Shown: piece after piece, positions 346 through 21,814 of the stretch
How positions within the stretch are numbered: position 1 is the first letter of the stretch
Layout: each line of letters begins with the position of its first letter
DNA from: a virus
Length of the DNA stretch: 33,324 nucleotides
IMG/VR virus record: IMGVR_UViG_3300037796_000302
Coordinates: 1 to 33,324 of that record
Strand: one strand, 5' to 3'
Made by a program: the position numbers and the translations under genes
The notes under the pieces: generated by a model
What the model saw: only the letters and a program-made list of their open reading frames with translations
Database searches by the model: none
What the model was told of the DNA's origin: nothing

Positions 346-1932
346 TTAATTTGTTAACTCCCAAGAAACTTCTACAGAAGCACTTGTTGACTCACCTGTT
401 ACATCATCTGAAATATCAAACGATACAATGGCATTATGGAAATTACTTGGACAACTGCTTGTAGTTGTGCCTGAGTAATTAACAGTGGCACCTGAAGACG
501 TAATATTAACACTTATACTTCCACATAGACTGACACCACTAGACGTACATCCAGTATTTGTAATTGTATAACTACCCGATCCTCCACTTACAGACAACGT
601 TCCGCTCAATGATGGTATAGTATATGGATCATTTCCTACCACACAAACTGTAGCATAATTATCATCATTCGACGACGCCTGTAAAGGTGGTAGCGAACTT
701 GGTGTAGGTGTTGGAGGAGGTGTTGAATCCGGTGATGACGTTGGTGTAGGTGTTGGAGGAGGTGTTGAATCCGGTGATGACGTTGGTGTAGGTGTTGGAG
801 GTGTATCACCAAGCTGTATATGATTAGTTCTAAATGTAAAATTGGATGATGCCGTATTTGATAGTGAATCTGTTACAGTAACTTGGCCATATCCAGTAAC
901 ACTCAAATCAGGAACTGTGCGTGTTCTTGAAAGTGTTGGCGTTGCTGTAGTAGAGTCAGTGATGTTAAACGAAGCTCCTCCCGTATATACCCAATTATAT
1001 GTGTAAGGTGGAGTGCCGCCACTTACACTATAATGAAATCCGCTAGAGAGATCAAGTGTTGCTATACATAGACCAGTATCAGCAATACAGGATGCTTCAA
1101 ATGGATCAAATGTTGTAATCACTAAATCTGAAGCGCCTGAATTAGATGGTGTTGGTGTTGGTGTTGGTGTGTTAGAAGCATTCGGCGTTGGTGTAGGTGT
1201 GGGTGTAGGTGTATCTGGTGCTCCCGCTGAAGACGTTGGTGTAGGTGTTGGAGTTTGTGTAGGCGGTGGATCAGGAGTTATTAATGTGCCTGTATTATTG
1301 TTATCTTTCAAGCCTACTATAAGATAGTTGGCCACACCCGCTGTTCTAAATCCTTGTCCTGAATAAGTATATTCCATTGTAACATTTGCCATATCATCTG
1401 TACGACATTCCATTTCATCTATTACATCTAATTGGTTAAAAGGAGAGACAATCCAGCTACATTCTTCATATGGAAAAGTATAACCGGATTCTGAAACTGG
1501 TTGTGGTATTTGCTCACCATCTACAATTTGACCCCAATTAGCGGCTACTTCTTGTCCCAATACTTCAATAGGGTGCCATTCACCATCATAAAACACATAT
1601 GGTCTTCCGCCAACTTCTGGTCTATCATCGCTTATATTAAACCATACTTGACCTTCTAAAGGCTTTCCTGTTGATAACAATGAATCACCATTTATTTCAT
1701 CATCTTCAATAGATATTATTTGACTATAGTCTGGGGTTCCTTGAATTGAAGGATCTTCGGGTGCTGCAAAATTTTCTAATAGATGTACAAAGTTTTCATT
1801 TAAATCTCGGCCATATCTTAAACGAGTAAACCCGAATAAGGTAATATCAACTAGATCAGAAATTTCTTCCTTTTCGCTGACGGTTACAATTGGTAAATTT
1901 ATATCAGTAAATTCTAGTCGATAGTCGGCCAT
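346..1932 (-). CDS. Fibre-like virion protein with Thr-Pro linkers and two Ig-like domains
   Basis: The protein has 528 residues in four parts. Residues 1-215 are a domain shared with three neighbouring genes. It includes 'YGRDLNENFVHLLENFA', a 'GQVWFN ... YDGEW' hairpin motif, '[15 protein letters not shown]', 'FPYEECSW' and the closing 'ANYLIVG-x-NNN'. Next is a Pro/Thr linker, then a SprB/PKD-like Ig domain with 'SGGTPPYTYNW'. A second linker carries a 14-residue repeat (PTPTSSPDSTPPPT), followed by a C-terminal Ig-like domain ('GGSGSYTI ... SFDISDDVTGE'). N-domain, flexible stalk and Ig head is a plausible fibre or adhesin layout, but no receptor specificity can be read. It is the only paralogue with two Ig domains. 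It starts 3 bases after the 58-residue ORF and probably shares its late promoter. Confidence 0.7.
   Translation of the reverse strand: MADYRLEFTDINLPIVTVSEKEEISDLVDITLFGFTRLRYGRDLNENFVHLLENFAAPEDPSIQGTPDYSQIISIEDDEINGDSLLSTGKPLEGQVWFNISDDRPEVGGRPYVFYDGEWHPIEVLGQEVAANWGQIVDGEQIPQPVSESGYTFPYEECSWIVSPFNQLDVIDEMECRTDDMANVTMEYTYSGQGFRTAGVANYLIVGLKDNNNTGTLITPDPPPTQTPTPTPTSSAGAPDTPTPTPTPTPNASNTPTPTPTPSNSGASDLVITTFDPFEASCIADTGLCIATLDLSSGFHYSVSGGTPPYTYNWVYTGGASFNITDSTTATPTLSRTRTVPDLSVTGYGQVTVTDSLSNTASSNFTFRTNHIQLGDTPPTPTPTSSPDSTPPPTPTPTSSPDSTPPPTPTPSSLPPLQASSNDDNYATVCVVGNDPYTIPSLSGTLSVSGGSGSYTITNTGCTSSGVSLCGSISVNITSSGATVNYSGTTTSSCPSNFHNAIVSFDISDDVTGESTSASVEVSWELTN
670..805 (-). repeat. 42-bp tandem repeat in fibre linker
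   Basis: Two almost identical 42-base units, plus partial flanking copies, encode the 14-residue repeat PTPTSSPDSTPPPT inside the fibre gene. The unit is a multiple of three, so copy-number changes would keep the frame. Confidence 0.8.
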
Positions 1933-1935
1933 GTT

Positions 1936-2112
1936 TTATCTCACCCGTTCTTCTATTTCAAAATCATCTAGCTTTTTTCCAATTATTTCTGGAGAATATT
2001 CATTATCATCAATTTCATAAATTCTCAATCCCTTTTCAGAGCATATTTCTTCACTCGGTTTCCCTGTCGAACTTGCCGTTATTATTCTATCGGTATTAAC
2101 TAATATATACAT
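1936..2112 (-). CDS. Small hypothetical protein, 58 residues
   Basis: ATG at 2112, TAA at 1936-1938. The protein begins MYILVNTDRI, is acidic towards the end and contains 'EEICSEKGLRIYEI'. An AAGGAT ribosome-binding site lies just upstream, and a late-promoter box (AATAAATA, 2139-2146) sits 26 bases before the start. Both argue that it is real and that it heads the transcript for the fibre gene beginning 3 bases after its stop. I do not recognise the family. A small beta-rich virion or fibre-accessory protein is possible, but that rests only on position. Confidence 0.7.
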   Translation of the reverse strand: MYILVNTDRIITASSTGKPSEEICSEKGLRIYEIDDNEYSPEIIGKKLDDFEIEERVR

Positions 2113-2138
2113 AACTTATCCTTGATGTAATATCTCCT

Positions 2139-2146
2139 ATTTATTA
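2139..2146 (-). promoter_or_regulatory. Late promoter box AATAAATA
   Basis: Minus-strand AATAAATA, 26 bases before the 58-residue ORF. It matches the T4-type late box (N)ATAAATA and overlaps the stop region of the next upstream gene. Confidence 0.65.
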
Positions 2147-2752
2147 ATAAACTGAAGTACCTAAATTATTATTTCTCTGTATTCCAATAATAAGATAATT
2201 TGCAATCCCTTCGATTTGTCCAAATGTTGAATTATTATATGTCATGGTAACTGTACTATCTACGGGATCACTATAACAGTTTACAGAAGTAAATCCAATT
2301 GCATAGCTAAAGGGCGCTACTGACCATATGCATTCTTCATAACTAAAATTATATCCTTCTGGAGATGTGGGTAATGGTAATTGCTCTCCATGTCTTATTT
2401 GACCCCAGTTAGCTGCATATTGCTGCCCCTTTTCTCCATAAGGAATCCACAAATCATTTTCAGCGTCATAAGAATATAAACGTTTATTGGTTTTATTAAA
2501 CCATAATTGACCTTCTACTGGATTTGACAGACGACTTTTTGACAGTGCATCATTTGGAAGGTCTTGATCAACATTTGATGATTCAACAGCAAAGTTTTCT
2601 AAAAGGTGTAATAAATTTTCATTGACATCTTTTCCCCATTCCAAACGAATTCTGCCGGGAAATTTAATACTATAGTCTTCATTAATACCAGTTTCTTCAA
2701 CTTCTATTGGCTGTTTTGAAGCATCGGTAAAATTTATATTATATGTAGTCAT
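2144..2752 (-). CDS. Fibre-like paralogue, N-terminal domain only
   Basis: The 202 residues correspond to the shared N-terminal domain of the fibre paralogues and nothing else: 'WGKDVNENLLHLLENFA', 'GQLWFNKTNKRLYSYD', 'AANWGQIRHGEQLPLP', 'FSYEECIWSVAP' and 'ANYLIIGIQRNNNLGTSVY' followed by the stop. The other paralogues enter their Thr-Pro stalk right after this NNNLG point, so the gene ends exactly at a domain boundary. It has its own late promoter (2778-2785). It could be a short fibre, a capping subunit or a partner of the separately encoded C-domain gene just upstream. A truncated relic is less likely because the reading frame and promoter are intact. Confidence 0.7.
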   Translation of the reverse strand: MTTYNINFTDASKQPIEVEETGINEDYSIKFPGRIRLEWGKDVNENLLHLLENFAVESSNVDQDLPNDALSKSRLSNPVEGQLWFNKTNKRLYSYDAENDLWIPYGEKGQQYAANWGQIRHGEQLPLPTSPEGYNFSYEECIWSVAPFSYAIGFTSVNCYSDPVDSTVTMTYNNSTFGQIEGIANYLIIGIQRNNNLGTSVY

Positions 2753-2777
2753 TTATAATCTTACTTTCAATCTTAGA

Positions 2778-2785
2778 TATTTATT
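2778..2785 (-). promoter_or_regulatory. Late promoter box AATAAATA
   Basis: Minus-strand AATAAATA, 25 bases before the start of the 202-residue N-domain protein. Spacing matches the other late boxes in the window. Confidence 0.65.
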
Positions 2786-2806
2786 CAAAATTTCATTTTC
2801 ACTAAA

Positions 2807-3292
2807 TTATACAATTTCCCAAAGTATGGTCAATCCTTCAAAAGCAACATCTCCAGTCACATTATCAACTATACGAAACGAAACTACAGCATCATGATAT
2901 CCACTTTCTAATGGACAATTCTCATATACTTTTTCGGGAAATTTAATCATTGCATTATCAGAACCTGTTTCTACAATTATATCTTCACAGATAGAAGTTC
3001 CCTGTGAATGGCAATTCTCAAATGATATAGTATAATCACCTGAACCACCATTTACTACAAATGAAGATTGAAGTTCCGGGATTGCTACTGAACCACCGGT
3101 GCAAGTAGATATAAAAGATGAATTGCTTCTATCTACTGTTGTCATTAAATTATTAGATGATGGTGTTGGTGTTGGGCTGGGATTAGGCTCAGAGGGTGAG
3201 GGTGAAGGTGGTGATTCAGAATCATCCGAAGAGCGTAAAACCGCAACTAATATCATAATAGCAATTATGACTAAAACTATTAATATATCCAT
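2807..3292 (-). CDS. Membrane-anchored Ig-like (fibre C-domain) protein
   Basis: 161 residues. Residues 3-20 form one uninterrupted hydrophobic segment (MDILIVLVIIAIMILVAVL), which is a signal anchor or a poorly charged signal peptide. Then come a Ser/Asp/Pro/Thr stalk (about 21-48) and a C-terminal Ig-like domain (about 60-161). That domain shares 'GGSGDYTI', two Cys flanking it, 'YHDAVVSFRIVDNVTGD' and a final 'W-E' with the C-domain of the 528-residue fibre. It therefore carries the fibre head on a membrane anchor instead of the virion-docking N-domain. A strong AAAGGAGAT ribosome-binding site precedes the ATG, 17 bases after the upstream fibre gene. A role at the cell envelope (exclusion, decoy or assembly) is inference. 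It could also be an accessory virion protein. Confidence 0.65.
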   Translation of the reverse strand: MDILIVLVIIAIMILVAVLRSSDDSESPPSPSPSEPNPSPTPTPSSNNLMTTVDRSNSSFISTCTGGSVAIPELQSSFVVNGGSGDYTISFENCHSQGTSICEDIIVETGSDNAMIKFPEKVYENCPLESGYHDAVVSFRIVDNVTGDVAFEGLTILWEIV

Positions 3293-3309
3293 TTTTATCT
3301 CCTTTTAAA

Positions 3310-4665
3310 TTATTGTATTTCTCCTATGCAATTTATATCTTGTGTTCTAGAACAAGTTATCGTATCTGTTGCAACTTCACCTGTTTCATTATCAGTTATA
3401 GTTACAGTAAATGTAGCCGTTATTGTGGCACTACCACTCCAACTTTGCTGTGTTCCACCCGAATTACCTGTGTAACTCAATATAGCCTGTGAATTTGTCG
3501 TTCCTGATGAGCCACAGGAAGCAGTTCCATCAACCACACTGCCAGTTGAACTTCCTGATGGATTGCTGCATGTAACTTGTGAAGTATAATTTCCTGATCC
3601 ACCATTAACATTAAATGAAGGTGAACCCACATTAATGTCATTATTATATTCTACGTTACAAACAGTTGGGAACAGCGGTGCTGGGTCTCCCAAACAACTT
3701 CCAAAGGAAACCGATAGCGGCTGTAATGGGCTATTAGATGGCGTGGGTGTTGGTGTGGGCGTATTTGTTGGTGTAGGTGTAGGTGTAGCCGTTGCTGTAG
3801 CCGTTGCTGTAGCCGTTGCCGTTGAAGTAGGTGTGGGTGGTGGTGGTGCTCCCTCAGAAGTAGACGGTGTAGGTGTAGCGGTATTTGTCGGCGTTGGTGT
3901 AGGCGTGGTTTCCTCGCTGCTTGTAGGTGTAGGTGTGGGTGTTGGCGAACCGCCGATTGGGCTTGATGGTGTGGGTGTAGGTGTCGGAGAAGGTTGATTA
4001 GTAGGTGTAACAGATGCTGTTGGAGTGGGTGTCACATCAATAGGTTCCCTCTGTACACCAAGATTATTGTTTCCTCTAATACCAATTATTTGATAATTTG
4101 CAACCCCTGAAGTAAGAGTGCCACTGCCGCTCTCCTGAAATTGAAAAGTTACGTTTCCTTCTGAATCAGTATAACAACGCATATAATCTATTTCTGCTCC
4201 ATAATTTGATGGAGCCACAACCCAACTACATTCTTCATATGGAAACACATAACCAGTTATATCACTAACAGGGCGTGGTATTTGTTCACCGTGGGAAATA
4301 GTTCCCGAATTACCTGCAACATCTCCAATTTGTTTTAAAGGTTTCCACAATAAGCCGGTAAAAAAGTAAATTCTTTGATTTGTTGTATTATACCAGAATT
4401 GTCCTGCTGTTGGTTTCGATAATACATTCTTTGTAGTATTTTTAGGGTTAGGATTGCCGGGATTATCAGGATCTTCTGGAGATGCAAAATTTTCTAATAT
4501 AAATAAAGCATTTTCATTAAAAACTTCACCATACTCTTCTCTTCTCTTACCTATAAGGGTAATATCTAGACTCTCATCATCTAGTTGTTTTCTCAAAACA
4601 ACAATACTGTTAACATTTTCATTTGTTTTTCTTATTTCATAAGAAGAGTCTTGACACTGAGCCAT
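3310..4665 (-). CDS. Fibre-like virion protein with Thr-Pro/Ala-Thr linker and Ig-like C-domain
   Basis: 451 residues. The N-domain (about 1-206: '[17 protein letters not shown]', 'GQFWYNTTNQRIYFF', 'GNSGTISHGEQIPRP', '[12 protein letters not shown]', '[17 protein letters not shown]') is followed by a long low-complexity stalk (about 210-320) of PTPTPT runs and an AT-dipeptide run encoded by repeated 12-base units. The C-terminal domain (about 325-451) carries 'NGGSGNYTS' and 'TFTVTITDNETGEVATD' and is richer in Cys than in the sister genes. Its N-domain is very close to that of the 468-residue paralogue upstream, which suggests a recent duplication, whereas the C-domains differ more. It has its own late promoter (4692-4699). 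Probably a tail-fibre or decoration protein. Confidence 0.7.
   Translation of the reverse strand: MAQCQDSSYEIRKTNENVNSIVVLRKQLDDESLDITLIGKRREEYGEVFNENALFILENFASPEDPDNPGNPNPKNTTKNVLSKPTAGQFWYNTTNQRIYFFTGLLWKPLKQIGDVAGNSGTISHGEQIPRPVSDITGYVFPYEECSWVVAPSNYGAEIDYMRCYTDSEGNVTFQFQESGSGTLTSGVANYQIIGIRGNNNLGVQREPIDVTPTPTASVTPTNQPSPTPTPTPSSPIGGSPTPTPTPTSSEETTPTPTPTNTATPTPSTSEGAPPPPTPTSTATATATATATATPTPTPTNTPTPTPTPSNSPLQPLSVSFGSCLGDPAPLFPTVCNVEYNNDINVGSPSFNVNGGSGNYTSQVTCSNPSGSSTGSVVDGTASCGSSGTTNSQAILSYTGNSGGTQQSWSGSATITATFTVTITDNETGEVATDTITCSRTQDINCIGEIQ
3735..4035 (-). repeat. Thr-Pro / Ala-Thr low-complexity stalk DNA
   Basis: Runs of GGTGTAGGTGTN-type hexamers encode TPTPTP, and a 12-base unit (GCCGTTGCTGTA on the plus strand) in three near copies encodes ATAT. 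The in-frame repeats are likely to change length by slippage. Confidence 0.75.
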
Positions 4666-4691
4666 TTATTCCACCTAATATCTATTGTGTA

Positions 4692-4699
4692 TATTTATA
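4692..4699 (-). promoter_or_regulatory. Late promoter box TATAAATA
   Basis: Perfect T4 late consensus TATAAATA on the minus strand, 26 bases before the 451-residue fibre gene. Confidence 0.75.
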
Positions 4700-4704
4700 A
4701 GCAT

Positions 4705-6111
4705 TTATGCGAATATTTCATATTGTAATGTAACACTAACATTAACTGTCTCTCCAGTTACAGTATCAGAAACTGTAACTGTTTCTGTCGAATATGTTTG
4801 AATTCCCGTATTGGAACATATCTGTGTAGTATTCCAACTGAAAGAAGATGGCGATATTGAATAATTGCCGGAACCTCCACTAGCATTGACAGTACTACTA
4901 GAAACAGACCATGAGAATGAAAAATTAACTGAATTTCCTGCTTGTCCAAAGCAGCTATCAGAATCTGTTATAGTGGCATTAGAAGCCGAAAGTGGAGGAT
5001 ACGTCGGTGATGGTGTTGGTGTATTCGACGGTGATGGTGCCGGTGTATTCGACGGTGATGGTGCCGGTGTATTCGACGGTGATGGTGCCGGTGTATTCGA
5101 CGGTGATGGTGCCGGTGTATTCGACGGTGATGGTGCCGGTACCGCTGTAGCAGTTGCTGTATTAGTTGGTGTAGGTGTTGGTATTACGACTTCAGAATTT
5201 GATGGTGTAGGTGTTGGTGTAGGTGTTGCACTTTCACTAACCGATGGTGTAGGTGAATTAGACGGATCAGGTGTATTAGATGGTGTTGGTGTAACGCTAC
5301 TTGTCGGTGTAATTGATGGCGTCGGTGTCACACTACTCGTTGGTGTAGGTGTTGGTGTACTTGTAGGTGTAGGAGTAGGTGTTGGTGTACTTGTAGGTGT
5401 AGGAGTAGGTGTTGGTGTACTTGTAGGTGTAGGAGTAGGTGTTGGTGTAACGCTACTTGTAGGTGTAGGTGTAGGTGTAGGTGGCATTGGAGTAATTCTA
5501 TTCCCAAGATTATTATTATCTCTTATGCCAATTATTTGATAGTTTACAATACCTGAAGTATACGTTAATGATCCCGATTCTCGATATTCAAATGTTACAT
5601 TAGCAGAAGAATCGGTATAACAACGCATATAATCTATTTCTACTCCATAATTTGATGGAGCTACAACCCAACTGCATTCTTCATATGGAAACACATAACC
5701 TGTAATGTCACTAACAGGCTGAGGTATTTGTTCACCATCTGCTATTGTTCCAGAATTACCTGCAACATCTCCTATTTGTTGTAAAGGCTTCCAATTTGTC
5801 CCATCAAAGAAATATATGTGATGACTTGTACTATTATACCAAAATTGTCCGGTCGTGGGGTTTGATAAAACAGAATTTGTTGTAGCAGTAGTATCAGGGT
5901 TTCCAACATTACCAGAATCTTCTGGTGCTGCAAAATTTTCTAATATGAACAACAAATTTTCATTAAACGTTTCTCCATAGTTTTTTCGACGATCCCCCAC
6001 TAGACCAATATCCAAACTAGAAGTATTTAATTCATTTATGTCAACTTCTATAATTTCTTCATTAGAATTTGTTTTTCTTATTTGAAAAGGTACATCTTTA
6101 CAAAGAGACAT
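4705..6111 (-). CDS. Fibre-like virion protein with longest Thr-Pro minisatellite stalk
   Basis: 468 residues. The N-domain (about 1-207) has the same landmarks as its sisters ('[17 protein letters not shown]', '[15 protein letters not shown]', '[15 protein letters not shown]', '[12 protein letters not shown]', '[16 protein letters not shown]'). The stalk (about 210-385) contains three copies of the 10-residue [10 protein letters not shown] repeat and five copies of the 8-residue PAPSPSNT repeat. The C-domain (about 386-468) is Ig-like with 'GGSGNYSI' and '[16 protein letters not shown]'. It lies first in the fibre array behind a GATAAATA late box. Tail-fibre or head-fibre are equally possible; it has no catalytic motif and no signal peptide. 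Confidence 0.7.
5006..5142 (-). repeat. 24-bp minisatellite, about five copies
   Basis: The plus-strand unit GACGGTGATGGTGCCGGTGTATTC is repeated head to tail about five times with almost no differences. It encodes the 8-residue PAPSPSNT repeat. The nucleotide near-identity shows recent expansion or homogenisation. Confidence 0.85.
5341..5452 (-). repeat. 30-bp minisatellite, three copies
   Basis: Three identical 30-base units encode [10 protein letters not shown] within the stalk of the 468-residue fibre. They are built from shorter GGTGTAGGTGTN subunits, which also flank them. Confidence 0.85.
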
Positions 6112-20684: not shown

Positions 20685-20707
20685 GAAAGGAACTACAGGT
20701 GCCTTTC
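20685..20707 (-). other. tnpB 3'-end hairpin, candidate reRNA (omega RNA) end
   Basis: Minus-strand GAAAGG - 11-base loop containing the tnpB stop - CCTTTC. TnpB guide RNAs are known to overlap the 3' end of tnpB and finish at the element's right end, so this hairpin is a candidate scaffold element. The exact end of the element is not determined. Confidence 0.4.
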
Positions 20708-21814
20708 ATTTAATGTTTCCTTCCTAGAAATATTGATAGATGCATTTAAATCTGCATCATGTTCAAATGCACAATTCGTGCATTTGAACTTATCACCATT
20801 TCTATTAGAAGAATCAGTCCATCCGCATTCACTGCACTGCTGACTTGTGTAACTAGGCGAAACATGTCGAACAAGGACACCTTGTTCTTCACATTTCGAT
20901 TCCAGTTTGTCATACAATGCAGTGTAAGTCCAGTGACTTAACATGCGGTTTGTTTTCTTTCTTTTTCTTAAGTGCTGTATTTTTTCCAATTTCAATTCTT
21001 TCACGGAATCAAGATTCAATTGATTGATAGTCCAGTTGATATAATTTTTTCTGTGTTCTTGGGCTTTTTTAAAGTTTTTACTTCCTTTCTTCTTTCTTGA
21101 CAGTTTTTCAGTGATTGATTTTAAATCATGTCCGTGATTGCATTGAGAGCTTTGAAAACCATTGGAACAGGAAACAGCTTTGTTTAATCCAATATCAATT
21201 CCTAAAGTGACTCCACTTGTTTTTGTTTCAACTTCTGGCAAATCAAACATGAAAGTCATTTGCTTCTTGCTCAATCGAATTCCAGATTTTATTTCTCCCT
21301 TTTTAAGTAACCGATTAAAATGTTTGCTCTTTTTGAACGGAATTTGGATTTTCATTTTGTTTCCGATGGAACTAAATGTGATCCATCCATCAAAACTGGT
21401 CTCATTTTCTAAATCAATTTTAACAAAACGAGAATCTAATTCAGGACAAACATGATTAATATTTGGTTTTGTAGTTTTGGTTTTATCATAAATCTTCTGT
21501 AATTTCAATGCCCTATGATGATCTCCTTCTGATTTCAATTGATCGATCATGAACTTTCGTTGCCTTTGCTTCTGTTTTGTTCCGCGAACCACGCTACTTG
21601 CTTGTTTTGCAGCGCATTGAATCATTCGAGCAGATAACCATGTGTTGACTTGAGAAGTGATTTCTTTGGGGAGTAATTTTGGAATATCATTTTCTTCCCA
21701 AATCAAATCGATAATTTGTTTCATGACACTTCGGTATTCATCGACCATTAGATGTAATTGATTTTGTTTTTCTTTGTTAGAAAATTTGATTGATGACGTT
21801 GTTGATCTAATCAT
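20693..21814 (-). CDS. tnpB: TnpB, RNA-guided nuclease of IS607/IS605-type elements
   Basis: 373 residues, a usual length. RuvC-like residues are present in order: D207 ('TLGIDIGLNKA'), E277 ('ELKLEKIQHL') and D355 ('HDADLNASINI'). The zinc ribbon C327-x2-C330 ... C345-x2-C348 lies between the last two. The N-terminal part (about 1-130) is helical and basic ('RGTKQKQRQRKFM'). TnpB enzymes cut DNA guided by an RNA from the element's right end and help retain the element after excision. All catalytic positions are retained and there is no frameshift, so this copy could be active. It starts ATGATTAG over the tnpA stop. Confidence 0.93.
   Translation of the reverse strand: MIRSTTSSIKFSNKEKQNQLHLMVDEYRSVMKQIIDLIWEENDIPKLLPKEITSQVNTWLSARMIQCAAKQASSVVRGTKQKQRQRKFMIDQLKSEGDHHRALKLQKIYDKTKTTKPNINHVCPELDSRFVKIDLENETSFDGWITFSSIGNKMKIQIPFKKSKHFNRLLKKGEIKSGIRLSKKQMTFMFDLPEVETKTSGVTLGIDIGLNKAVSCSNGFQSSQCNHGHDLKSITEKLSRKKKGSKNFKKAQEHRKNYINWTINQLNLDSVKELKLEKIQHLRKRKKTNRMLSHWTYTALYDKLESKCEEQGVLVRHVSPSYTSQQCSECGWTDSSNRNGDKFKCTNCAFEHDADLNASINISRKETLNERHL

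Follow-up and report, generated by a model that had tools for sequence, protein, structure and literature searches.

A 161-aa protein encoded in the viral DNA analysed here (33,324 nt, positions 1 to 33,324 of IMG/VR record IMGVR_UViG_3300037796_000302; hereafter the window) joins a predicted membrane helix to a domain related by sequence, as a diverged copy, to the one that ends the phage's own 528-aa fibre-like protein. The gene for this anchored protein (2807..3292, minus strand) is an intact open reading frame within an array of fibre-like genes, and it occupies the same position in related phages.

The fibre-like array and its genomic setting

The window carries a T4-like replication module (clamp loader, UvsX, SSB, helicase and terminase), and the nearest named relatives of the array are found in Xanthomonas phage XacN1 and in Stenotrophomonas phages RAS14 and CM1. 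By sequence, the window phage is a member of the XacN1-like jumbo group, and by analogy with its known relatives we infer a Gram-negative host. A transposase-like ORF (20693-21814; PHROG 506, E 6e-31) lies near the terminase gene. A large protein encoded at 30543-33227 matches a head-tail adaptor family (PHROG 211) and, over a short stretch, also resembles the array N-domain at its GQ.W motif (E 8e-4).

Every array gene is on the minus strand and transcription runs leftward, in the order 468-aa protein (4705..6111), 451-aa protein (3310..4665), 161-aa anchored protein, 202-aa protein (2144..2752), a 58-aa ORF (1936..2112) and 528-aa protein (346..1932). The 468-, 451-, 202- and 528-aa proteins have in common an N-domain belonging to PHROG 15511 (E values of 3.9e-112, 1.2e-104, 3.8e-71 and 1.6e-84, respectively). 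Linkers rich in Pro, Thr and Ser and variable C-domains follow the N-domain in the 468-, 451- and 528-aa proteins, but not in the 202-aa protein; the 528-aa protein has an internal domain as well as its terminal one. The 58-aa ORF, which begins MYILVN and directly precedes the 528-aa gene, is conserved in relatives L001, L002, L006 and L007; it has no PHROG match and falls in no known family.

The same array, with its N-domain, P/T/S linkers and swapped C-domains, is present in XacN1 (ORF232-237), RAS14 and CM1, but unlike the window these arrays have no membrane-anchored member; the anchored protein, for its part, has no N-domain. In the paper describing XacN1, tail fibres were not seen and fibre homologues were not found, and its main text has nothing on ORF231-237 (PMC5852040). 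XacN1, described as fibre-less, has six PHROG 15511 N-domain genes. We regard the array proteins as candidate virion fibres.

An earlier note on this DNA had described the gene after the anchored gene as encoding an N-domain without a head. The N-domain-only character is borne out: the 2144-2752 product ends without a linker, and the gap to the next conserved ORF, 31 nt, leaves no remnant of a lost C-domain. By sequence it is a complete N-domain-only paralogue and no fragment. The note had also argued that the two genes are not one gene broken by a stop codon, and we agree: leftward transcription puts the anchored gene first and there is no remnant between the genes, which rules out a break by stop or frameshift.

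The term "head-less" fares less well. The C-domain is indeed absent, but it is doubtful that the C-domain is the head. In an AlphaFold2 model of the 202-aa protein built from 43 sequences (pLDDT 87), residues 53-108 match trimerisation segments of tailspike and collagen XV/XVIII, and residues 109-191 match R-pyocin fibre feet, AP22 gp53, the Sf6 tailspike and H-type lectins (Z ~3-6 for both sets). The lectin and fibre-tip matches reach only Z 4-5 over 60-80 residues; these likenesses to the R-type pyocin foot, AP22 gp53 and H-type lectins are weak, come with no sequence similarity and concern the neighbours of the anchored protein rather than the anchored protein itself. Since the matches, though modest, form a coherent set, the N-domain may be a binding unit in its own right, trimeric and lectin-like, and the 202-aa protein may be a short fibre that is complete and does not lack its head.

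Nor does the pairing of an anchored gene with an N-domain-only gene appear to be special. N-domain-only genes are seen without an anchored gene in at least five relatives (L007, L029, L030, L031 and L061), and the association between the two is not significant (Fisher p = 0.07). The N-domain-only genes of L001 and L002 fall in another orthologue group. As a separate observation, several N-domain proteins in L033-L037 and L062 end in regions resembling Hint or autoprocessing domains (e.g. L034:7118-8992 and L062:9001-10649), with a CF.G... start in L062 and ITV..KCFWAGE..AFILHHN ends elsewhere; Pfam Hint_2 is matched in L062 at an E value of only 0.016.

Architecture, homology and recurrence of the anchored protein

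The anchored gene is preceded by a strong Shine-Dalgarno sequence, AAAAGGAGATAAAAATG, with its AAGGAG at 3299..3304 (minus strand). Hydrophobicity analysis and AlphaFold2 both predict a helix at residues 3-19 (3236..3286), which is extremely hydrophobic (mean Kyte-Doolittle 3.8). A Ser/Pro/Thr linker follows (residues 20-49, 3146..3235), disordered as judged from its sequence and low pLDDT, and then the C-domain (residues 50-161, 2810..3145), modelled as a beta sandwich over residues 50-160 (mean pLDDT ~82). The conserved N-domain of about 200 aa found in PHROG 15511 is absent, and so is a lipobox cysteine, the first cysteine being residue 64. Signals for membrane topology conflict. The window helix has no Lys or Arg before it and one Arg directly after it, and the count of positive residues in all three anchored proteins (0 before the helix, 1-2 after) favours a cytoplasmic C-domain; net charge around the helix favours the opposite topology.

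The nearest relative of the anchored C-domain is the terminal domain of the 528-aa protein (349..684, minus strand), with 39% identity over 90 aa. With the linkers removed, phmmer gives E 6e-18 for this pair, and the comparison scores z=22 against shuffled targets; the runner-up among 67 domains, L1_440 (a fibre domain of L001), scores z=13.6. All four cysteines are kept, with residues 64, 94, 102 and 126 of the anchored protein aligning with residues 430, 462, 470 and 494 of the 528-aa protein. These data bear out the view that the 161-residue protein pairs a hydrophobic anchor with a relative of a fibre C-domain. A shared ligand is not thereby assured, because the two domains differ at 61% of aligned positions.

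The C-domain is predicted to be an Ig-like beta sandwich. In structure comparison its matches are to generic folds only: the best VIA scores (Z ~7) are shared by numerous chains of the Ig and cadherin type, and the best Foldseek E value is 1e-3. Sequence searches of Pfam, PADLOC and PDB with the C-domain returned nothing significant, and a direct search for relatives of the window anchored protein found none in phages or IMG/VR. The sole match of a profile of the window C-domain was a fibre domain of L001. In PHROG, the window and L002 anchored proteins had no match below 0.2, and the L001 protein had a weak match (0.0017) to the C-terminal half of PHROG 15511. Ig-like accessory domains, reportedly described in structural proteins of tailed phages by Fraser et al. 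in 2006, share with the anchored protein a small beta sandwich, here a predicted one, on a flexible linker and the swapping between proteins; here, in contrast, a single copy is joined to a membrane anchor and to no other domain.

Related arrays were found in IMG/VR by means of the N-domain, and anchored relatives were located within them by position and N-domain. In L001 (173 aa) and in L002/L003 (151 aa) the gene for an anchored protein comes immediately ahead of the 202-aa gene's orthologue. A position upstream of the MxTYNINF gene is kept in three lineages of a single clade; when the neighbouring N-domains are placed in a tree, those of the three phages that bear an anchored gene form one group (support 88/96). 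The L004-L008, L018-L020 and L029-L037 arrays showed no anchored gene. The L001 and L002 anchored proteins share a C-domain, which has no detectable relation to the window type, and since they are still 35% identical overall we take them to be under selection. Profile comparison gives their domain a weak link to C-domains of fibres in L002 and other phages (hhalign probability 49%, P 2e-4). The L001 domain does not match the sole complete fibre C-domain seen in L001.

Exchange of C-domains is also seen among the fibres themselves: orthologous fibres have N-domains 50-78% identical and C-domains that are unrelated or only weakly related, and repeats in the linker DNA give homology for exchange. 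Because sister lineages keep the gene at the same position with a different C-domain, the anchored gene is, as judged from sequence comparison, an accessory of one clade that is under selection and whose domain is swapped. The L001 orthologue of 346-1932 is truncated, and its missing part was not found at the other contig end; no further membrane-anchored Ig-like proteins were seen elsewhere in 260 kb of the L001 contig, and GTDB genome contigs had no N-domain match.

Late-promoter motifs upstream of array genes

Five arrays were scanned for the core of the T4 late promoter, TATAAATA. Eight of their 24 genes have it within 60 nt upstream, against an expectation of 0.92 genes and a maximum of four in 1000 shuffled sets. 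With one mismatch allowed, enrichment is not clear (15 observed, 8.5 expected), and across the whole window the exact motif is at chance level. In the window it lies 34 nt before the 451-aa gene (4692..4699, minus strand). Exact copies lie 30 and 38 nt before the anchored genes of L001 and L002, respectively, and the window anchored gene has a weak late-promoter-like sequence, TATAAATT, with one mismatch, 45 nt upstream (3330..3337, minus strand). The strong enrichment before array genes (window 346-6111 and L051-L054) is found although the array adjoins replication genes.

A homologue of gp55 is present in eight of the 11 records searched; the window fragment itself has none. A late motif resembling TATAAATA has been reported in jumbo phage CBB (PMC5259590). 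Since T4-type late-promoter motifs are found in the array and gp55 is found in most of the relatives searched, the anchored gene is probably expressed late.

Possible roles of the tethered domain

The reading that we favour, tentatively, is that the tethered domain acts late and at the inner membrane, where it binds what the terminal domain of the 528-aa protein binds. The anchored gene and the fibre genes would be expressed alike from late promoters of the T4 type, and the anchored product would bind at the inner membrane the ligand of that terminal domain, or an envelope precursor of the ligand; alternatively, the target could be the homologous fibre domain itself. This would curb wasteful binding by newly made fibres and virions, or by phage superinfecting late, while the cell is dying. 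What the data support is the architecture, homology, recurrence and promoter motif, whereas location, ligand and effect are guesses. The homology to one specific fibre of the same phage argues for this reading, as do the predicted fold and anchor, the position kept in three lineages and the late-promoter motifs. Against it, the charge signals conflict, the L001 domain is unlike the sole complete C-domain of a fibre in that phage, the XacN1 paper reported neither tail fibres nor homologues of them, and Ig-like domains are common and may serve unrelated roles. Competition for the ligand, a part in assembly and an envelope role unrelated to the fibre are close in likelihood.

The last of these, which we think rather unlikely, holds that the protein is an envelope moron whose Ig-like domain was captured by recombination in P/T/S linkers and binds some other host envelope target. 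Ig-like domains are promiscuous, the linker DNA repeats offer homology for such exchange, and the C-domain at this position differs between lineages; but the nearest relative of the window domain belongs to one of the phage's own fibre-like proteins. A similarly doubtful proposal is an assembly partner on the cytoplasmic face of the inner membrane that pairs with the terminal domain of the 528-aa protein or aids folding or attachment of the fibres. The gene sits inside the fibre array and has late-promoter motifs in common with the fibres, its best match is one specific fibre, and the positive residues favour a cytoplasmic C-domain. Fibre assembly has no general need of the anchored protein, however, because most relatives with the same array lack the gene, and the known chaperones of fibres are soluble.

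The note had suggested that the protein could mask receptors or act in superinfection exclusion. Masking at the cell surface is not supported: an inner-membrane helix with a linker of 10-30 residues cannot reach the exterior of a Gram-negative cell, so that, if the host is Gram-negative, so short a linker is unlikely to take the domain past the cell wall and the outer membrane. It is accordingly improbable that the protein works in the classic way as an early exclusion factor, masking or inactivating the receptor, even though it has a predicted membrane anchor and a domain of the phage's own fibre. Receptor-directed exclusion proteins of the T5 Llp type are periplasmic lipoproteins, and Llp can shut a receptor (PMC9586334); the title of a reference in that paper points to early expression of Llp. 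Like Llp of T5 and Cor of the T1 type, the anchored protein is a small phage-encoded protein, predicted to be tethered to the envelope and possibly tied to adsorption, but it has no lipobox cysteine and no detected homology to them, its promoter motifs are of late type, which does not suit early exclusion, and its domain is related to the phage's own fibre-like protein.

Still less probable is a virion component whose hydrophobic N-terminus serves assembly or ejection; the gene does sit among candidate virion genes with late-promoter motifs, but a 17-residue helix at Kyte-Doolittle 3.8 is expected to insert into a membrane. Repetitive linkers favour recombination, yet a non-functional by-product of domain shuffling is very improbable because of the conservation seen, namely an intact ORF with a Shine-Dalgarno sequence, a position kept in three lineages and the identity remaining between the L001 and L002 proteins.

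A more specific form of the competition reading, which we regard as distinctly speculative, is that a lytic jumbo phage produces late a tethered, ligand-matched copy of one of its own adhesin domains, which competes with its own virions for receptor or receptor precursors and is swapped alongside the fibre domains. A self-matching device of this kind for exclusion or progeny protection was not described in the sources searched.

Regardless of the ligand, a candidate virion protein and a predicted membrane protein have a fibre domain in common, probably through linker-mediated shuffling, and an adhesin-like array in XacN1-type jumbo phages, previously unannotated, is now described. If the ligand is shared, the phage would manage adsorption by tethering a copy of its own adhesin domain to the membrane, and domain swapping would make exclusion and the specificity of adsorption evolve jointly.
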